From Cryomorphaceae bacterium 1068 (lineage in GTDB: Bacteria > Bacteroidota > Bacteroidia > Flavobacteriales_D > Cryomorphaceae), in contig JAPVXR010000002.1 in assembly GCA_027214385.1 (NCBI GenBank), forward strand, positions 434,001 through 498,000: DNA of 64,000 nucleotides, in the 5' to 3' direction. Of this stretch, positions 7,106 to 12,290 are shown piece after piece (positions within the stretch are counted from its first letter, which is position 1; every line of letters begins with the position of its first letter). The notes under the pieces were generated by a model, which saw only the letters and a list, made by a program, of their open reading frames with translations, searched no databases and was not told the origin of the DNA. The translations under genes and the position numbers were made by a program.

Positions 7106-8082
7106 GTCGTGCTTTTTAGCAAATTTAAGAGTGTTTTGGCTTTCAGCCTGGTTTCCATCCATTCTGCTTCCATATCGCTTTTCGCTGTAATTCCTCCGCC
7201 TGCATAAAGCGCTAGATCCCTCTCTCCAATTTGCATGCATCTTAAGTTGACAAAAACGCGTGTTTCGCTTTCGCTGAGAATGCCGAGATAACCAGTGTAA
7301 AGACCACGGTCGTGTTTTTCAGCAGCTTGAATTAGTTCAATGGAAGCAGCAGTTGGAAGGCCTGCTACCGCAGGAGTAGGGTGCAATTGGTCAAGCAGTG
7401 ATCGGACACTTTTGCCGTATTTAAAACGAAAATCTGTTTTGAGATGAACGACATTGGCCGCTTGAATGGTATAGGGTGCGGTCTCTCTTATCTCCGTTGC
7501 TCCTCCCTTTTCGAGAATTGCTCGAATATGTTCATTCACCAACTCATGTTCTTCCACTTCTTTTTCTCCCCAATCATATTCCTGTGAAGGGTTTGTGGGT
7601 TGGGTGCCGGCCAAAGCTACCGTGGAATATTCATCTCCGCTTCCTTCCAGTAATATTTCGGGACTTGCTCCACACCAAGTTCCTAGACTGGGGTGGTAGA
7701 GTAAGTAAGCAAAGGCATTTGGATAGGATTCACACAAACGAAAGAAATAATCAATAGGGTCAAAATCCTTTGGTTTTTCTTCCTGAATAATACTGGATAA
7801 AATGGCTTTTTGAATATTTCCTGATTGAAATGCTTCCATGTACTTGGCGAATGACACTCGGTAGCCTTCCTTCGAAGTTTGTCTCTGAAATCGACTCTTT
7901 TGTGAAGAGTTTGATGATTGAAGCGAAAAAGCTCCGCCCTGCCAAGGCTTGATAATAAAGTTAGTTTGACCATTTAGATCGGCCAGTTCAATTTCTTTCC
8001 CGGGAATGCGGTATACCATAAATGGCCTTTCTTCCGAGACTGCTTTCTCAAATGAAGTATGAATGCTTTCGGTCTTTGTCAC
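7102..8082 (-). CDS. menF: Isochorismate synthase (MenF/EntC family)
   Basis: Converts chorismate to isochorismate. Seen: the chorismate-binding domain with ALAGTQP, a WGEKEVEEHELVNEHI helix and the PTPAVAGLPTAAS signature, followed by RGLYTGYLG. At 326 residues it lacks much of the N-terminal part of longer MenF proteins; compact forms are common in this phylum. GTG start at 8082 forms a GTGA 4-nt overlap with the thioesterase stop, and the end overlaps menD. An anthranilate or p-aminobenzoate synthase is the alternative; menD next door settles it. Confidence 0.92.
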   Translation of the reverse strand: MTKTESIHTSFEKAVSEERPFMVYRIPGKEIELADLNGQTNFIIKPWQGGAFSLQSSNSSQKSRFQRQTSKEGYRVSFAKYMEAFQSGNIQKAILSSIIQEEKPKDFDPIDYFFRLCESYPNAFAYLLYHPSLGTWCGASPEILLEGSGDEYSTVALAGTQPTNPSQEYDWGEKEVEEHELVNEHIRAILEKGGATEIRETAPYTIQAANVVHLKTDFRFKYGKSVRSLLDQLHPTPAVAGLPTAASIELIQAAEKHDRGLYTGYLGILSESETRVFVNLRCMQIGERDLALYAGGGITAKSDMEAEWMETRLKAKTLLNLLKSTT

Positions 8083-8492
8083 TTTGGTAAAATCATATTA
8101 GTGAGGCGGCACACCGATATCAACCTGTTATCTTGATCGGTGACTTTTATATCCCATACATGCGTCTTTCTGCCCTTGTGGAGCAATGTGCCTCTCGCTG
8201 TTACTAAACCGGATTTGATGCTGCGAATGTGGTTGGCATTGATTTCAATCCCCACTACGCCCCCGGCTGAATTGCCAACCATGATAAAACTTCCCAAGCT
8301 TCCCAAAGATTCGGCAAGAGCTGCCGTAGCTCCACCATGTAGCAGGCCTGCAGGTTGATGTACCCTCGAGTTCACCGGCATTGTAGCTTCTACGAAATCT
8401 TCTCCAAAATCGGTAAATACAATGCCCAGCGTTTCCATCAGCGTATCTTTGTTGATTTCGTTGGCCTTCTTTAGTATTGCTGTCTTATCCAC
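8079..8492 (-). CDS. Hotdog-fold PaaI-type thioesterase, candidate DHNA-CoA thioesterase
   Basis: A 137-residue hotdog thioesterase. Seen: VHQPAGLLHGGATAALAESLGS, the 4HBT/PaaI signature with the catalytic-type acidic residue in the helix after HGG, and a GIEINANHIRS strand. Known: proteins of this type (YdiI/MenI) hydrolyse 1,4-dihydroxy-2-naphthoyl-CoA. Its place as first gene of the men operon, coupled to menF by GTGA, makes that role likely here, but this is inference. The open frame extends to 8642, overlapping the divergent response regulator. I start at GTG 8492 because the usual length fits and a TATATTTG promoter box lies just upstream. Confidence 0.82.
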   Translation of the reverse strand: MDKTAILKKANEINKDTLMETLGIVFTDFGEDFVEATMPVNSRVHQPAGLLHGGATAALAESLGSLGSFIMVGNSAGGVVGIEINANHIRSIKSGLVTARGTLLHKGRKTHVWDIKVTDQDNRLISVCRLTNMILPK

Positions 8493-8507
8493 AAGCTTAT
8501 TTTTGTC

Positions 8508-8515
8508 CAAATATA
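8508..8515 (-). promoter_or_regulatory. -7 promoter box of the menaquinone operon
   Basis: On the minus strand the sequence TATATTTG matches TAnnTTTG exactly and lies 15 nt before the GTG start at 8492. No convincing TTG is at the expected -33 distance. It rules out the TTG at 8510 as the start. Confidence 0.45.
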
Positions 8516-8565
8516 ATCGGTCCTTTGAACAAGCTGCTAGCTGCGAAAGTTTACACAAACCAGTC

Positions 8566-9276
8566 ATGATTGACGAATCGAAAAAGAAGCGAATACTATT
8601 GGTTGAAGATGAAGAGAGTCTCATTGAGATGATCAGCTTCAATTTGGAGATGGAAGACTACAATGTGACACGAGCTATGGATGGTAAACAAGCTTTGGAT
8701 ATCGCCGATAAGGCTCGCTTTGATCTGTGTATTCTCGATATCATGCTTCCAAAGGTTGATGGAATCACCGTGTGCAAGACACTAAGGATTCGCAATCAGC
8801 GCATTCCCATTCTTTTTCTCAGTGCAAAATCTACAGGAAATGATCGGGTAGAGGGACTCAAAGCAGGAGGAGACGACTACCTCACCAAGCCATTTAATTT
8901 AGAGGAGTTACTCCTGCGGGTGAAGAATCTGCTTCGGTTGACCACTCCTGTTCAAGAGGTTCAGGCCAAAATTGACAGCTATGAATTCGGAGGTAACTCA
9001 GTAGATTTTAAAAACTTCGAGATTAAAAATGCTGAGGGTGAAATAAAAAGTCTCTCAAAAAAGGAAACACATCTCCTGAAATATTTGATCGAAAATGAGG
9101 GAAGGGTCGTTTCCCGAGAAGAAATCTTGGACACTGTTTGGGGGTATGACGTCTATCCCACCACGAGAACGATTGACAATTACATTCTCTCTTTTCGAAA
9201 GCATTTTGAACCTGATTCGAAGAATCCGATCTACTTCCATTCTGTAAGAGGTGTGGGGTATAAGTTTACAAATTGA
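8566..9276 (+). CDS. OmpR/PhoB-family response regulator
   Basis: Two-domain DNA-binding regulator of 236 aa. The receiver domain (about 8-122) carries acidic pocket residues E14 and D15, the phosphorylated aspartate D58 (ILDIMLP), S86 and K108 (LTKPF). The winged-helix effector (about 140-235) carries VVSREEILDTVWG and RTIDNYILSFRKHF, ending in the family-typical HSVRGVGYKF. No histidine kinase lies next to it in the window, so its signal is unknown. The frame is open back to 8422, but the ATG at 8566 gives the normal N-terminus. It runs divergently from the men operon. The first RNA/terminator unit lies 30 nt behind its stop. Confidence 0.93.
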   Translation: MIDESKKKRILLVEDEESLIEMISFNLEMEDYNVTRAMDGKQALDIADKARFDLCILDIMLPKVDGITVCKTLRIRNQRIPILFLSAKSTGNDRVEGLKAGGDDYLTKPFNLEELLLRVKNLLRLTTPVQEVQAKIDSYEFGGNSVDFKNFEIKNAEGEIKSLSKKETHLLKYLIENEGRVVSREEILDTVWGYDVYPTTRTIDNYILSFRKHFEPDSKNPIYFHSVRGVGYKFTN

Positions 9277-9306
9277 CCCGATTAAGGCAACCACCTTATT
9301 TTCTTT

Positions 9307-9398
9307 CGTCTTCAATGTGCAATCTCAGTGATTGCTCATGGTTTCAAATTATTCTTGCAGGTTTTAAAAGCGTTCTTCGGGACGCTTTTTCTTTTTTT
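9307..9398 (+). ncRNA. Putative structured RNA, copy 1 (hairpin, conserved linker, terminator)
   Basis: Seen: CGTCTT at 9307; a 6-bp hairpin (9319-9324 with 9330-9335); the shared linker ATGGTTTCAAA at 9338 and CTTGCAGG further on; then a 10-bp hairpin (9366-9375 with 9380-9389, loop TTCG) and a T-rich tail. The same order of parts recurs 179 nt downstream. It could be an sRNA, or the 3' UTR and terminator of the response regulator. No clear promoter of its own is visible. No known family is recognised. Confidence 0.4.
9366..9398 (+). terminator. Rho-independent terminator, copy 1
   Basis: Stem AAAAGCGTTC with GGACGCTTTT around a TTCG tetraloop, followed by a T-rich tail. It ends transcription of the response regulator or of RNA copy 1. 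Confidence 0.75.
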
Positions 9399-9485
9399 AG
9401 CACCTCATGTTGGGACATTGGAGACACACTTCTAATACTGTTCTCAGCTTTTTTTGATTTAATCGACAACCTTTTAAAATCCCTA

Positions 9486-9568
9486 CGTCTTTATGACACA
9501 ATCGCAAGATTGTATGGTTTCAAAATTTTCCTTGCAGGTTTAAAAGCGCTTTTCGGAGCGCTTTTTTT
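9486..9568 (+). ncRNA. Putative structured RNA, copy 2 (tandem duplicate)
   Basis: Same layout as copy 1: CGTCTT at 9486; a 6-bp hairpin ACAATC/GATTGT (9498-9503 with 9508-9513) with a GCAA tetraloop; linker ATGGTTTCAAA at 9514 and CTTGCAGG; then a terminator hairpin. The outer base pair of the first hairpin is A-T here and G-C in copy 1, and a terminator pair is C-G here and T-A in copy 1. Both pairs stay complementary although their bases changed, which argues that the structure matters. Transcription is not shown by the sequence. Confidence 0.4.
9542..9568 (+). terminator. Terminator, copy 2, possibly bidirectional
   Basis: Stem AAAAGCGCT with AGCGCTTTT and a T7 tail. The hairpin lies directly behind the stop of the convergent nuclease gene, so it may stop transcription from both sides. 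Confidence 0.7.
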
Positions 9569-12290
9569 ATTCGAATACTGCGTACTGGAATTTCTCTGAA
9601 GCTTCTATGGGCTCTGAGCTATCGAGCATTTTCAAGACGGTTTTTCTCAAGAACTCTTCGAAAAGATCCATTACTTCGCTTCTGTCTCCTACGTTCAGGT
9701 ATAGATCTCTTTTTCCGGGAGCGGCCAACGAGATAATCTGATTCACCACTTCTACATCTTTGTTTTCATCGTAAAGCAACCAGTCGTAAAGCAATAATTG
9801 TAGGGCTTTCCCTTTGGTCTTGAGCTTATCTTCCAGAAAATTATAGGTGGTTGGTTGATTCTTGGCCGGACTTAGATTGAGATCAGAAGCTTCAACATTT
9901 CCCGTTTTGAAGTCGATTATGTGAAGCATGTCGTTGCGCCTTTCGATTCTATCTATGTACCCTTTAATGCGCACAGGTAAAATTTCACCCTGATATTCAA
10001 CCTTGAGTATTTTTTCTACTCGGCGTTCGCTTTCCAAATACTCTACAACATCACCCTTGGTCAAATCATCTTTTTCGTAATTCAGGTAAGATTGAATCAT
10101 TTTCAAGGCGGTTTCGAAATGTAGCCGATTTACACCATAGCTGTAATCCTTACTTCCTGCACCTTCATGGAATGAGTCGCTGAGTTGTTGCCTTACCCTT
10201 TTTGATATCTGTTCAATAATTTCCTTAGAAATAATCTCTTTCTCGTAAGGTTGGAAGAGCTTCTCCAAACAATCATGAACTATGATTCCGAAAGTTGAAT
10301 GGTCAATTTCATTGGTCTCCGGTTCAGCCAATGAAAGGATATTGGAATAGTACCATTCCAGTGATGATTCAAAAAAGCGATTGATTGAAGAAGCCGACAA
10401 TCCACCGGTCACAAGTGAGTTCTTTATGATTTCTATCACCTCCTCTGTCTTTTCAATAGACTTCGGTTCTGTCTCATGAAAAAGCTCTGAAGGCTTCAAG
10501 TTAATGTGGGAGAATCTGTTTTCGTTTTCGAAATCTTCTCGAACCTGCATGAGGTAGCGACTCATTTCTCCACCGCTAAAAGTTCCCGAGTCTGTGTGAT
10601 AGATGGCGGAGAAAGACTTGGAATGACTCAGCAGGCGATAAAATTGATAGGCAAAAACCGCCTCTTTTTCACGGCGAGCGGGAAGTTTGTGAAAGAGACG
10701 AACTTCAAATGGAATAAAGCTCTCCGTATGATTGTTCTTTGGAAAGTTTCCTTCATCCACCGAGCAAAGGATGAGGTTTTCGAACCCGAGGGCTCGAGTC
10801 TCCAAAACCCCCATGATTTGTAGCCCCTGCATGGGTTCACCTAAAAGGGAAAGTTTGGTGGAGGATAGCACCCGAACAAATATTTGTCGCAGGCTACTCA
10901 AATCAAGTTCAGCGGATCTTTCAAAATGAATGAGCCGATCAATGGTTTCCAGCACCTTTTCACAACCTAGCAGACCCATCCTTACTTCAGGTTTAGAAAG
11001 ATCTGAACCTTTAATTCGCGACAAGGTCCATTGAAAGACCATCTTTAAATTGTCGAAGGACATCTTTTGATTGCTCTGAAGCGATGAGAGCAAGGTGGCT
11101 TCACCGATTTTATCTTCGAAATCATCAAGCTCAATGGAAGAGTCGGAAAAGTTCTTTCCACTTGGCAATCCAATGAGCGAACTGAAAGGGTGATTGAGCA
11201 ATTGAAGTAGCCGCCGGGTGTTTAGTTGATATCCCTTGTCTGTCTTTTTTGCGGTGATATGAACATCCATCCACGCCTCCACCCAATTTCGGAAACTTGA
11301 AGTCCCCAAGCTTAAACCCATTGTGACATTCACTGCTTTAATGGATTCCGGAAGTCTCTCAATGACAGGCATCAGCATTGACTCATCGGCTAAAATTAAG
11401 CCTGTTTTTTTCAGATCTTCCTCAGGAGTTTTTTCCAAAATCGCTGCAATGGCATTGGCTTGATCAAGTTTGTAGGCAGCAGAAATGGCCTGAATTTTTG
11501 TGCTGCTTTCGGTAAAAGGGGTTTTGGGCTTTAAGATTTCACCCAATCCTGACTTGAGATTCTTTTTAATGAATCTCCCCGCATTTTTATGATCACTCAT
11601 CAGGTAGTCATCAGCGTCGAAATATACCTTGCCGATTCCTGCCTCTTCCATAGCTTTCAAGAGTTTAACCTCTGCATTGGTCAAGGCATTGAATCCCGCG
11701 ACAGTGATGAATCGGGACTGGTTTTCACTAAAGTGAGTAGCAGCCATCTCAGCGGCCGCTCTCATGATCATACCCGATGTCCCGATTTTATTTTCGAGTA
11801 GTCTCTTTTTGAATTTGTTAAAAATATTTGGCAGCGTTCGCCAAAATCGGCGGTAGGATTCCTGCTTTTCCGAGAGGGGGGATTTAAGAAAGCTGAATTG
11901 ATCGATCTCTGTGTAGTCTATCAGTTCTTTGAAAAGCACATTGGGGTCGATGAGGTAAGCATCGATATCGTTGAAGTCGGACAGAATGACGGATGACCAT
12001 GATAAAAACTCTGACAACGATTGAGCTTCAGCGCCCATAGTTTGAGCGTAAGCTTCGTAAAGGGCGAAGGAGGTAAGAAGGTTTTCAGCTGGTTCGAGAC
12101 CCGATATCTGTGAAGCCCACTCATTAAACGTGAGCATTTCGGGCAGCCATATTGCGCCGTCAGTTCTATCTGCCAGAATTTGGGTTAAAAAATTTGCCGA
12201 GCGTTTTGTCGGCAAAATAATCACTTGATTTTCAAGAGTAAAATCGTTCTGCAGGATGCATTCTGCGAGCGATCCAAGAAAAGGTTGCAT
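9567..12290 (-). CDS. AddB-like PD-(D/E)XK exonuclease subunit
   Basis: Large protein (907 aa) of the Bacteroidota AddB/RexB-like group. It should process double-strand breaks together with the UvrD-type partner at 17919-21119. Seen: an N-terminal QVIILPTKRSANFL block in place of an intact Walker A, a degenerate helicase-like middle, and a C-terminal RecB-type nuclease with GYIDRIERR and then IIDFKTG (D793, K795) and QLLLYDWL. Only one cysteine (VHDCLEKL) is visible around the nuclease entry, so the AddB iron-sulfur cluster is probably absent. The ATG directly follows the stop of the TPR gene with no gap, so the two are likely co-expressed. Confidence 0.88.
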   Translation of the reverse strand: MQPFLGSLAECILQNDFTLENQVIILPTKRSANFLTQILADRTDGAIWLPEMLTFNEWASQISGLEPAENLLTSFALYEAYAQTMGAEAQSLSEFLSWSSVILSDFNDIDAYLIDPNVLFKELIDYTEIDQFSFLKSPLSEKQESYRRFWRTLPNIFNKFKKRLLENKIGTSGMIMRAAAEMAATHFSENQSRFITVAGFNALTNAEVKLLKAMEEAGIGKVYFDADDYLMSDHKNAGRFIKKNLKSGLGEILKPKTPFTESSTKIQAISAAYKLDQANAIAAILEKTPEEDLKKTGLILADESMLMPVIERLPESIKAVNVTMGLSLGTSSFRNWVEAWMDVHITAKKTDKGYQLNTRRLLQLLNHPFSSLIGLPSGKNFSDSSIELDDFEDKIGEATLLSSLQSNQKMSFDNLKMVFQWTLSRIKGSDLSKPEVRMGLLGCEKVLETIDRLIHFERSAELDLSSLRQIFVRVLSSTKLSLLGEPMQGLQIMGVLETRALGFENLILCSVDEGNFPKNNHTESFIPFEVRLFHKLPARREKEAVFAYQFYRLLSHSKSFSAIYHTDSGTFSGGEMSRYLMQVREDFENENRFSHINLKPSELFHETEPKSIEKTEEVIEIIKNSLVTGGLSASSINRFFESSLEWYYSNILSLAEPETNEIDHSTFGIIVHDCLEKLFQPYEKEIISKEIIEQISKRVRQQLSDSFHEGAGSKDYSYGVNRLHFETALKMIQSYLNYEKDDLTKGDVVEYLESERRVEKILKVEYQGEILPVRIKGYIDRIERRNDMLHIIDFKTGNVEASDLNLSPAKNQPTTYNFLEDKLKTKGKALQLLLYDWLLYDENKDVEVVNQIISLAAPGKRDLYLNVGDRSEVMDLFEEFLRKTVLKMLDSSEPIEASEKFQYAVFE

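Follow-up and report, generated by a model that had tools for sequence, protein, structure and literature searches.

Two tandem units in the 64,000-nucleotide stretch of Cryomorphaceae bacterium 1068 analyzed here (the window) probably encode a sibling pair of trans-acting small RNAs (sRNAs) that depend on an ECF sigma factor and repress translation of gldKLMN, in the manner of the unrelated MicA and RybB. The units belong to a family of promoter, hairpin, linker, and terminator that is preserved in two bacterial orders, and the linker is complementary to the leader of gldK in many of the genomes that carry it.

Tandem units and their promoters

The duplication was confirmed where the original prediction had placed it, with the copies starting at 9307 and 9486, 179 nt apart. 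They span 9307–9398 and 9486–9571 and constitute the sole direct-repeat family within 8900–10000. With a promoter, a hairpin, a linker, and a terminator, each copy amounts to a complete transcription unit, and the two are set among three protein-coding genes:

8079–8642, − strand: 4HBT (hotdog) thioesterase, a conserved neighbor
8572–9276, + strand: OmpR/PhoB-type response regulator (Response_reg and Trans_reg_C), a conserved neighbor of the sRNA; stop codon 9 nt before the −35 box of copy 1
9286–9311, + strand: ECF-sigma-type promoter of copy 1; −35 GGCAACC (9286–9292), 14-nt spacer, −10 CGTCT (9307–9311)
9318–9398, + strand: predicted small RNA of copy 1, about 80 nt, both ends predicted (start placed about 7 nt past the −10 box); model match 9312–9396, 87.4 bits
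9319–9335, + strand: first hairpin of copy 1, GCAATC-TCAGT-GATTGC, from folding and covariation
9338–9361, + strand: conserved single-stranded linker of copy 1, near-invariant in alignments; predicted seed CTTGCAGGTT
9366–9398, + strand: intrinsic terminator of copy 1, from the fold and from terminator covariation in the family
9465–9490, + strand: ECF-sigma-type promoter of copy 2; −35 GACAACC (9465–9471), 14-nt spacer, −10 CGTCT (9486–9490)
9497–9571, + strand: predicted small RNA of copy 2, about 75 nt, both ends predicted; model match 9491–9572, 84.2 bits
9498–9513, + strand: first hairpin of copy 2, ACAATC-GCAA-GATTGT, from folding
9514–9538, + strand: conserved linker of copy 2, CCTTGCAGGTTT; in the same genome, AACCTGCAAGG stands 1 nt upstream of the gldK ATG
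9542–9571, + strand: intrinsic terminator of copy 2, from sequence and fold
9567–12290, − strand: AddB-like PD-(D/E)XK nuclease, convergent; its stop codon overlaps the end of terminator 2

The predicted lengths come close to the 80–95 nt proposed originally. The CGTCTT shared by both copies had been taken as part of the RNA, but it is promoter DNA, because it follows GGCAACC or GACAACC at ECF spacing; it supplies the −10 box, and its −35 partner had been missed. AAC and CGTC elements at such spacing form the −35/−10 signature of ECF sigma factors. Across the units, a GGCAACC-like box is followed after 14–15 nt by CGTCT, CGTTT, or CGTCA, and a CGT-box ECF promoter is known from Flavobacterium psychrophilum (PMC9723704).

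As expected of an ECF-sigma-dependent class of sRNAs, −35 (AAC) and −10 (CGT) elements at fixed spacing lie upstream of 89 of 89 distinct units (spacer of 14 nt in 29 and of 15 nt in 60), in a collection that demanded a promoter of this shape. The independent figures are 75 of 78 stretches retrieved by a DNA pattern devoid of the −35 box, and 54 of 57 hits of an RNA covariance model, with two of the three exceptions being false hits in clade f8. That model, R1, was built without the promoter, so the recurrence of the promoter is not built in. The strict motif, counted in one genome, showed no excess over a reversed control; what links it to a sigma factor is its repeated occurrence ahead of orthologous genes. 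In clade f9, another promoter-like site, about 80 nt 5′ of the sRNA, was rejected as a coding coincidence, lying inside the conserved SVRGVGYKF codons of the response regulator.

Structure and distribution of the RNA family

The paired differences reported originally were found again: the outer pair of the first hairpin is G-C in copy 1 and A-T in copy 2, and one terminator pair is T-A in the former and C-G in the latter. The TTCG terminator loop is present in copy 1 as described, but it is read in both terminators and does not distinguish the copies. The folding energies are lower than those of shuffled sequences, with z scores of −3.25 (copy 1) and −2.26 (copy 2). In the family, of the 86 units with a 5′ hairpin, 99% fold this segment better than its shuffles (mean z −2.97, mononucleotide shuffles), with 52 distinct stems among the folded segments, and double changes occur at 7 of 8 terminator pairs. 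Since the arms of the first hairpin shift between clades, it escaped RNAalifold run on plain MAFFT alignments, and arms were swapped between units instead. The arms change in step, with 54 distinct arm pairs; cognate arms reach a mean of −11.1 kcal/mol versus −6.5 kcal/mol for swapped ones (z = −12; 0 of 5000 permutations as good), among units that are related by descent.

Between the two hairpins, the linker GGTTTCAA...CTTGCAGGTT is near-invariant, with a middle part of variable length. Three units (L011/L086, L077, and the second L078 copy) have lost the first hairpin while keeping promoter, linker, and terminator, so that the linker comes first. Its retention in these relatives suggests that the linker is the indispensable part. 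An ATG does precede it in both window copies and in several units of clade f1, and the reading ATG GTT TCA ... would give M-V-S-N-Y-S-C-R-F in copy 1 and M-V-S-K-F-S-L-Q-V in copy 2. A short peptide is nevertheless hardly credible: elsewhere the ATG is replaced by TTG, CGG, or ACG, and the linker, its middle included, shifts in length by 1–5 nt with its nucleotides kept and its reading frame not, which indicates that it is not coding.

The covariance-model search proposed with the original prediction was carried out with R1, built from 11 units and confined to sequence downstream of the CGTCT box. Relatives were found in 118 of 399 genomes of Flavobacteriales, two weak f8 hits among which look false; these (L061, L066) and a hit in genome G537 (L186) came without promoter or linker and were judged to be chance. 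Recurrence in more than 100 genomes places the unit far above chance. A DNA-pattern scan of named genomes gave 78 stretches, nearly all from Flavobacteriales MAGs, together with the isolate Cryomorpha ignava, a cultured organism with two copies of the unit. Searching the whole class added true members from a further order, all in one genus, and three of them were included in a second model, R2; with the later model, matches in this second order came to 41 of 45 genomes. Of the phylum-wide R2 hits scoring below about 30 bits, most resemble bare terminators and were set aside. Homologues reduced to the terminator would have spoken against the original prediction; linker and terminator are in fact kept across two orders, and only the first hairpin is absent, in the three relatives above. 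The joint preservation of linker, hairpin, and terminator in two orders and the covariation of the hairpin arms support the original proposal of selected RNA structure and sibling small RNAs beyond plain terminators.

The original prediction also named no known family, and the sRNA family is absent from Rfam and from the papers searched. Rfam 15 gave no match at the gathering score for the window and eight homologous loci, with the best subthreshold hits in the window at chance level, and no description of the family was found in the literature searched, subscription papers lying mostly outside that search. Some genomes hold several copies: L040/L132, L041/L119, and L107 comprise two copies of very similar sequence, and genome G008 has three dispersed ones. 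Such multiple copies suggest that the sRNA gene has been duplicated repeatedly or has undergone gene conversion.

Of 159 loci (a redundant set, some members of which are cut by contig ends), 124 have an OmpR-type response regulator upstream in the same orientation, and the 4HBT thioesterase and MenF recur near the unit. In the second order, response regulator and thioesterase hold equivalent positions. This neighborhood bears on a very improbable reading, in which the units are plain terminators or a structured 3′ UTR of the response-regulator mRNA and no separate RNA exists. The response-regulator stop codon lies just upstream of the first promoter with no terminator between them, and copy 1 may double as the end of that mRNA. 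However, every unit has its own promoter, conservation extends past the terminator to the linker and first hairpin, and at several loci (such as L130, L119, L132, L075, L083, L123, and L128) the response regulator is gone while promoter and sRNA remain beside the thioesterase. Because such loci keep promoter and RNA, the sRNA is not mere read-through, the outcome that had been named as fatal to the original prediction.

A predicted ECF sigma regulon

The promoter was searched for in 20 genomes, and 60 sites were read. In 15 of the 20 it stands ahead of an ECF sigma gene, the members of which are orthologous (L247 in the genome of the window), and a gene for a DUF5684 membrane protein in about 15 (L248 in the same genome; sites L233, L241, L248, L251, L254, L257, L262, L264, and L274), making this small membrane protein a predicted core member of the regulon. 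It also precedes a second sRNA-like unit, composed of a hairpin, an ATGCTTA(C) linker, and a terminator and located ahead of YceI or other envelope genes; such units were read elsewhere at L240, L252, L258, L231, L255, and L236. Pfam confirmed sigma-70 regions 2 and 4, DUF5684, and YceI. In the genome of the window, two of these features are:

Contig C8, about 127.5 kb, − strand: ECF sigma gene, with the same promoter upstream
Contig C3, about 274240–274378, − strand: sRNA-like unit of the second type (L244); linker ATGCTAACTTAC

A promoter shared by the sigma gene and both sRNA types is a hallmark of ECF regulons under autoregulation. The sRNAs are thus apparently transcribed, and the promoters apparently read, by this sigma factor, as judged from sequence. 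Negative feedback of the sRNA on the sigma mRNA was considered and rejected, the corresponding site (ACCTGCAA before an inner ATG in the genome of the window) not being conserved.

Two further observations concern the second type. In genomes G003 and G007, the gldK leaders (L346, L347) contain GTAAGCAT, an 8-nt complement of its ATGCTTAC, beside the site for the first type. In the genome of the window, the leader of an outer-membrane beta-barrel gene (contig C18, about 1447; L395) carries the sense sequence AAGATGCTTACCTTGCAGGTAA, with both linker types adjacent; this leader is perhaps a target mimic, or the arrangement is due to chance.

The gldK leader and known systems

Targets were sought with exact 9- and 11-mers and in one candidate operon. 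The genome of the window contains 32 non-self CCTGCAAGG sites versus 8 for the reversed control, an excess that may be due in part to codon bias. One site, AACCTGCAAGGc-ATG, adjoins the start of gldK, the product of which was identified as GldK by TIGR03525 (E = 4e-175). Exact ACCTGCAAGGA sites in accC-like genes were rejected as targets, being coding sequence of a conserved RTCKEMG stretch.

A perfect complement of at least 9 nt is found in the gldK leader of 22 of 35 sRNA-bearing genomes versus 0 of 10 sRNA-lacking ones, a set that leaves out five unreadable sRNA-lacking f8 genomes (Mann–Whitney p ~1e-5, with genomes related and counts not independent); at the starts of other genes, a match of 9 nt is reached in about 2%. 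By clade, the site is present in 8 of 8 genomes of f1, 10 of 10 of f21 (CCTGCAAGGA at about −36 to −47), 4 of 13 of f9, and 0 of 2 of f7, and the f2 leaders permit imperfect pairing only. Five of the eight f1 sites are CCTGCAAGG or AAAACCTGCA adjoining the ATG; G005, G001, and G004 were counted through a TTGAAACCA match farther upstream and also have a shorter AACCTGCA site by the ATG. As in trans-acting base-pairing sRNAs, a conserved unpaired seed is accompanied by a conserved complement in the leader, clearly in f1 and f21 and partially in f9.

No strong perfect gldK complement was seen in f7 and much of f9, though the sRNA is present. Conceivably, the sRNAs are real and ECF-sigma-dependent while acting mainly on other envelope mRNAs, or on several, with the gldK match minor or lineage-specific. 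The several f9 and f7 genomes that have no clear gldK site fit such a reading, as does the genome of the window, where CCTGCAAGG adjoins the ATG of an M23/LysM peptidase (CCCTGCAAGGA directly 5′ of it; L367, contig C1, 365876) and lies within the predicted leader of a CarboxypepD_reg/TPR protein gene (L375). We consider it unlikely, given that the gldK site is found in two orders and is absent from readable genomes lacking the sRNA. Because the seed also matches the peptidase start, gldK may be one target among several.

A more distant alternative is that the RNA mainly binds a protein, for example a Bacteroidota RRM-type RNA-binding protein, and that the linker is the protein site rather than a seed. 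The linker is nearly invariant across great distances, more so than seeds usually are, and its GGUUUCAA half has no consistent partner among gldK leaders. On the other hand, its length and middle vary, and the gldK complement tracks the presence of the sRNA, which leaves protein binding improbable as the main function.

The favored mechanism, pairing of the sRNAs with the gldK leader, would operate as follows. Activation of the autoregulated ECF sigma factor would raise both sRNAs, each from its own promoter. In each, hairpin and terminator would frame an unpaired linker whose seed has the core CCUUGCAGGUU. Its main conserved target would be the leader of gldK, which encodes the T9SS ring lipoprotein PorK/GldK and is usually first in gldKLMN, and pairing of the seed there would prevent translation initiation. 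Since in the genome of the window only 1 nt separates the end of the site AACCTGCAAGG from the gldK ATG, pairing should block initiation, making repression the expected outcome rather than activation. While the sigma factor is active, less of the T9SS secretion core would be made. More tentatively, and with somewhat less than even confidence, we suggest that Bacteroidota evolved an envelope circuit of their own resembling that of sigma-E, in which two unrelated sRNA types are under a single autoregulated ECF sigma factor. In at least two orders, the linker type would lower the T9SS core by way of the gldK leader, and in one genus the ATGCTTAC type possibly acts on that leader as well.

Beyond the genus Bacteroides, the promoter class, target, or distribution is known for few sRNAs of Bacteroidota. 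The present family spans many marine and freshwater Flavobacteriales and a second order, with a defined sigma regulon and one strong target candidate. In design, the family resembles the sigma-E-dependent MicA and RybB of Enterobacteria, short RNAs with an ECF-sigma promoter, a terminator, and an unpaired seed complementary to translation starts of envelope genes, all features predicted here. In contrast to those RNAs, which target porins in another phylum, the predicted target is a T9SS lipoprotein operon, and the lack of an Rfam match leaves no detectable relation.

Within Bacteroidota, FopS/GibS of Bacteroides thetaiotaomicron is likewise a multicopy family with a conserved unpaired seed and a terminator, and its action on outer-membrane transport genes is at the start codon (PMC11697453). 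FopS, however, has a housekeeping sigma-ABfr promoter, targets susC mRNAs, and has a stated Rfam deposit (PMC11697453), whereas the present loci have no Rfam match at the gathering score and carry the upstream boxes GGCAACC and CGTCT rather than the TAnnTTTG box of the housekeeping promoter (PMC11697453, PMC9723704). Judged by the description of the regulon alone, a further likeness is to SM6 of F. psychrophilum, where an ECF sigma/anti-sigma pair, T9SS genes, and the conserved putative RNA Rfp11 occur together with a CGT-box ECF promoter (PMC9723704). Transcription of T9SS genes is attributed there to the sigma factor itself, as a proposal (PMC9723704), whereas here a sigma-dependent sRNA would act on T9SS mRNA. 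In Porphyromonas gingivalis, PorXY-SigP also ties an ECF sigma factor to T9SS expression; SigP binds por promoters and activates them, with no binding of rSigP upstream of porK (PMC4800418). That system differs in its motif, in acting by activation, and in that no sRNA figures in its description (PMC4800418). If correct, the mechanism proposed here would place the T9SS, the secretion and gliding machine of the phylum, under post-transcriptional control tied to an envelope-stress-type sigma factor, by a route other than PorXY-SigP.
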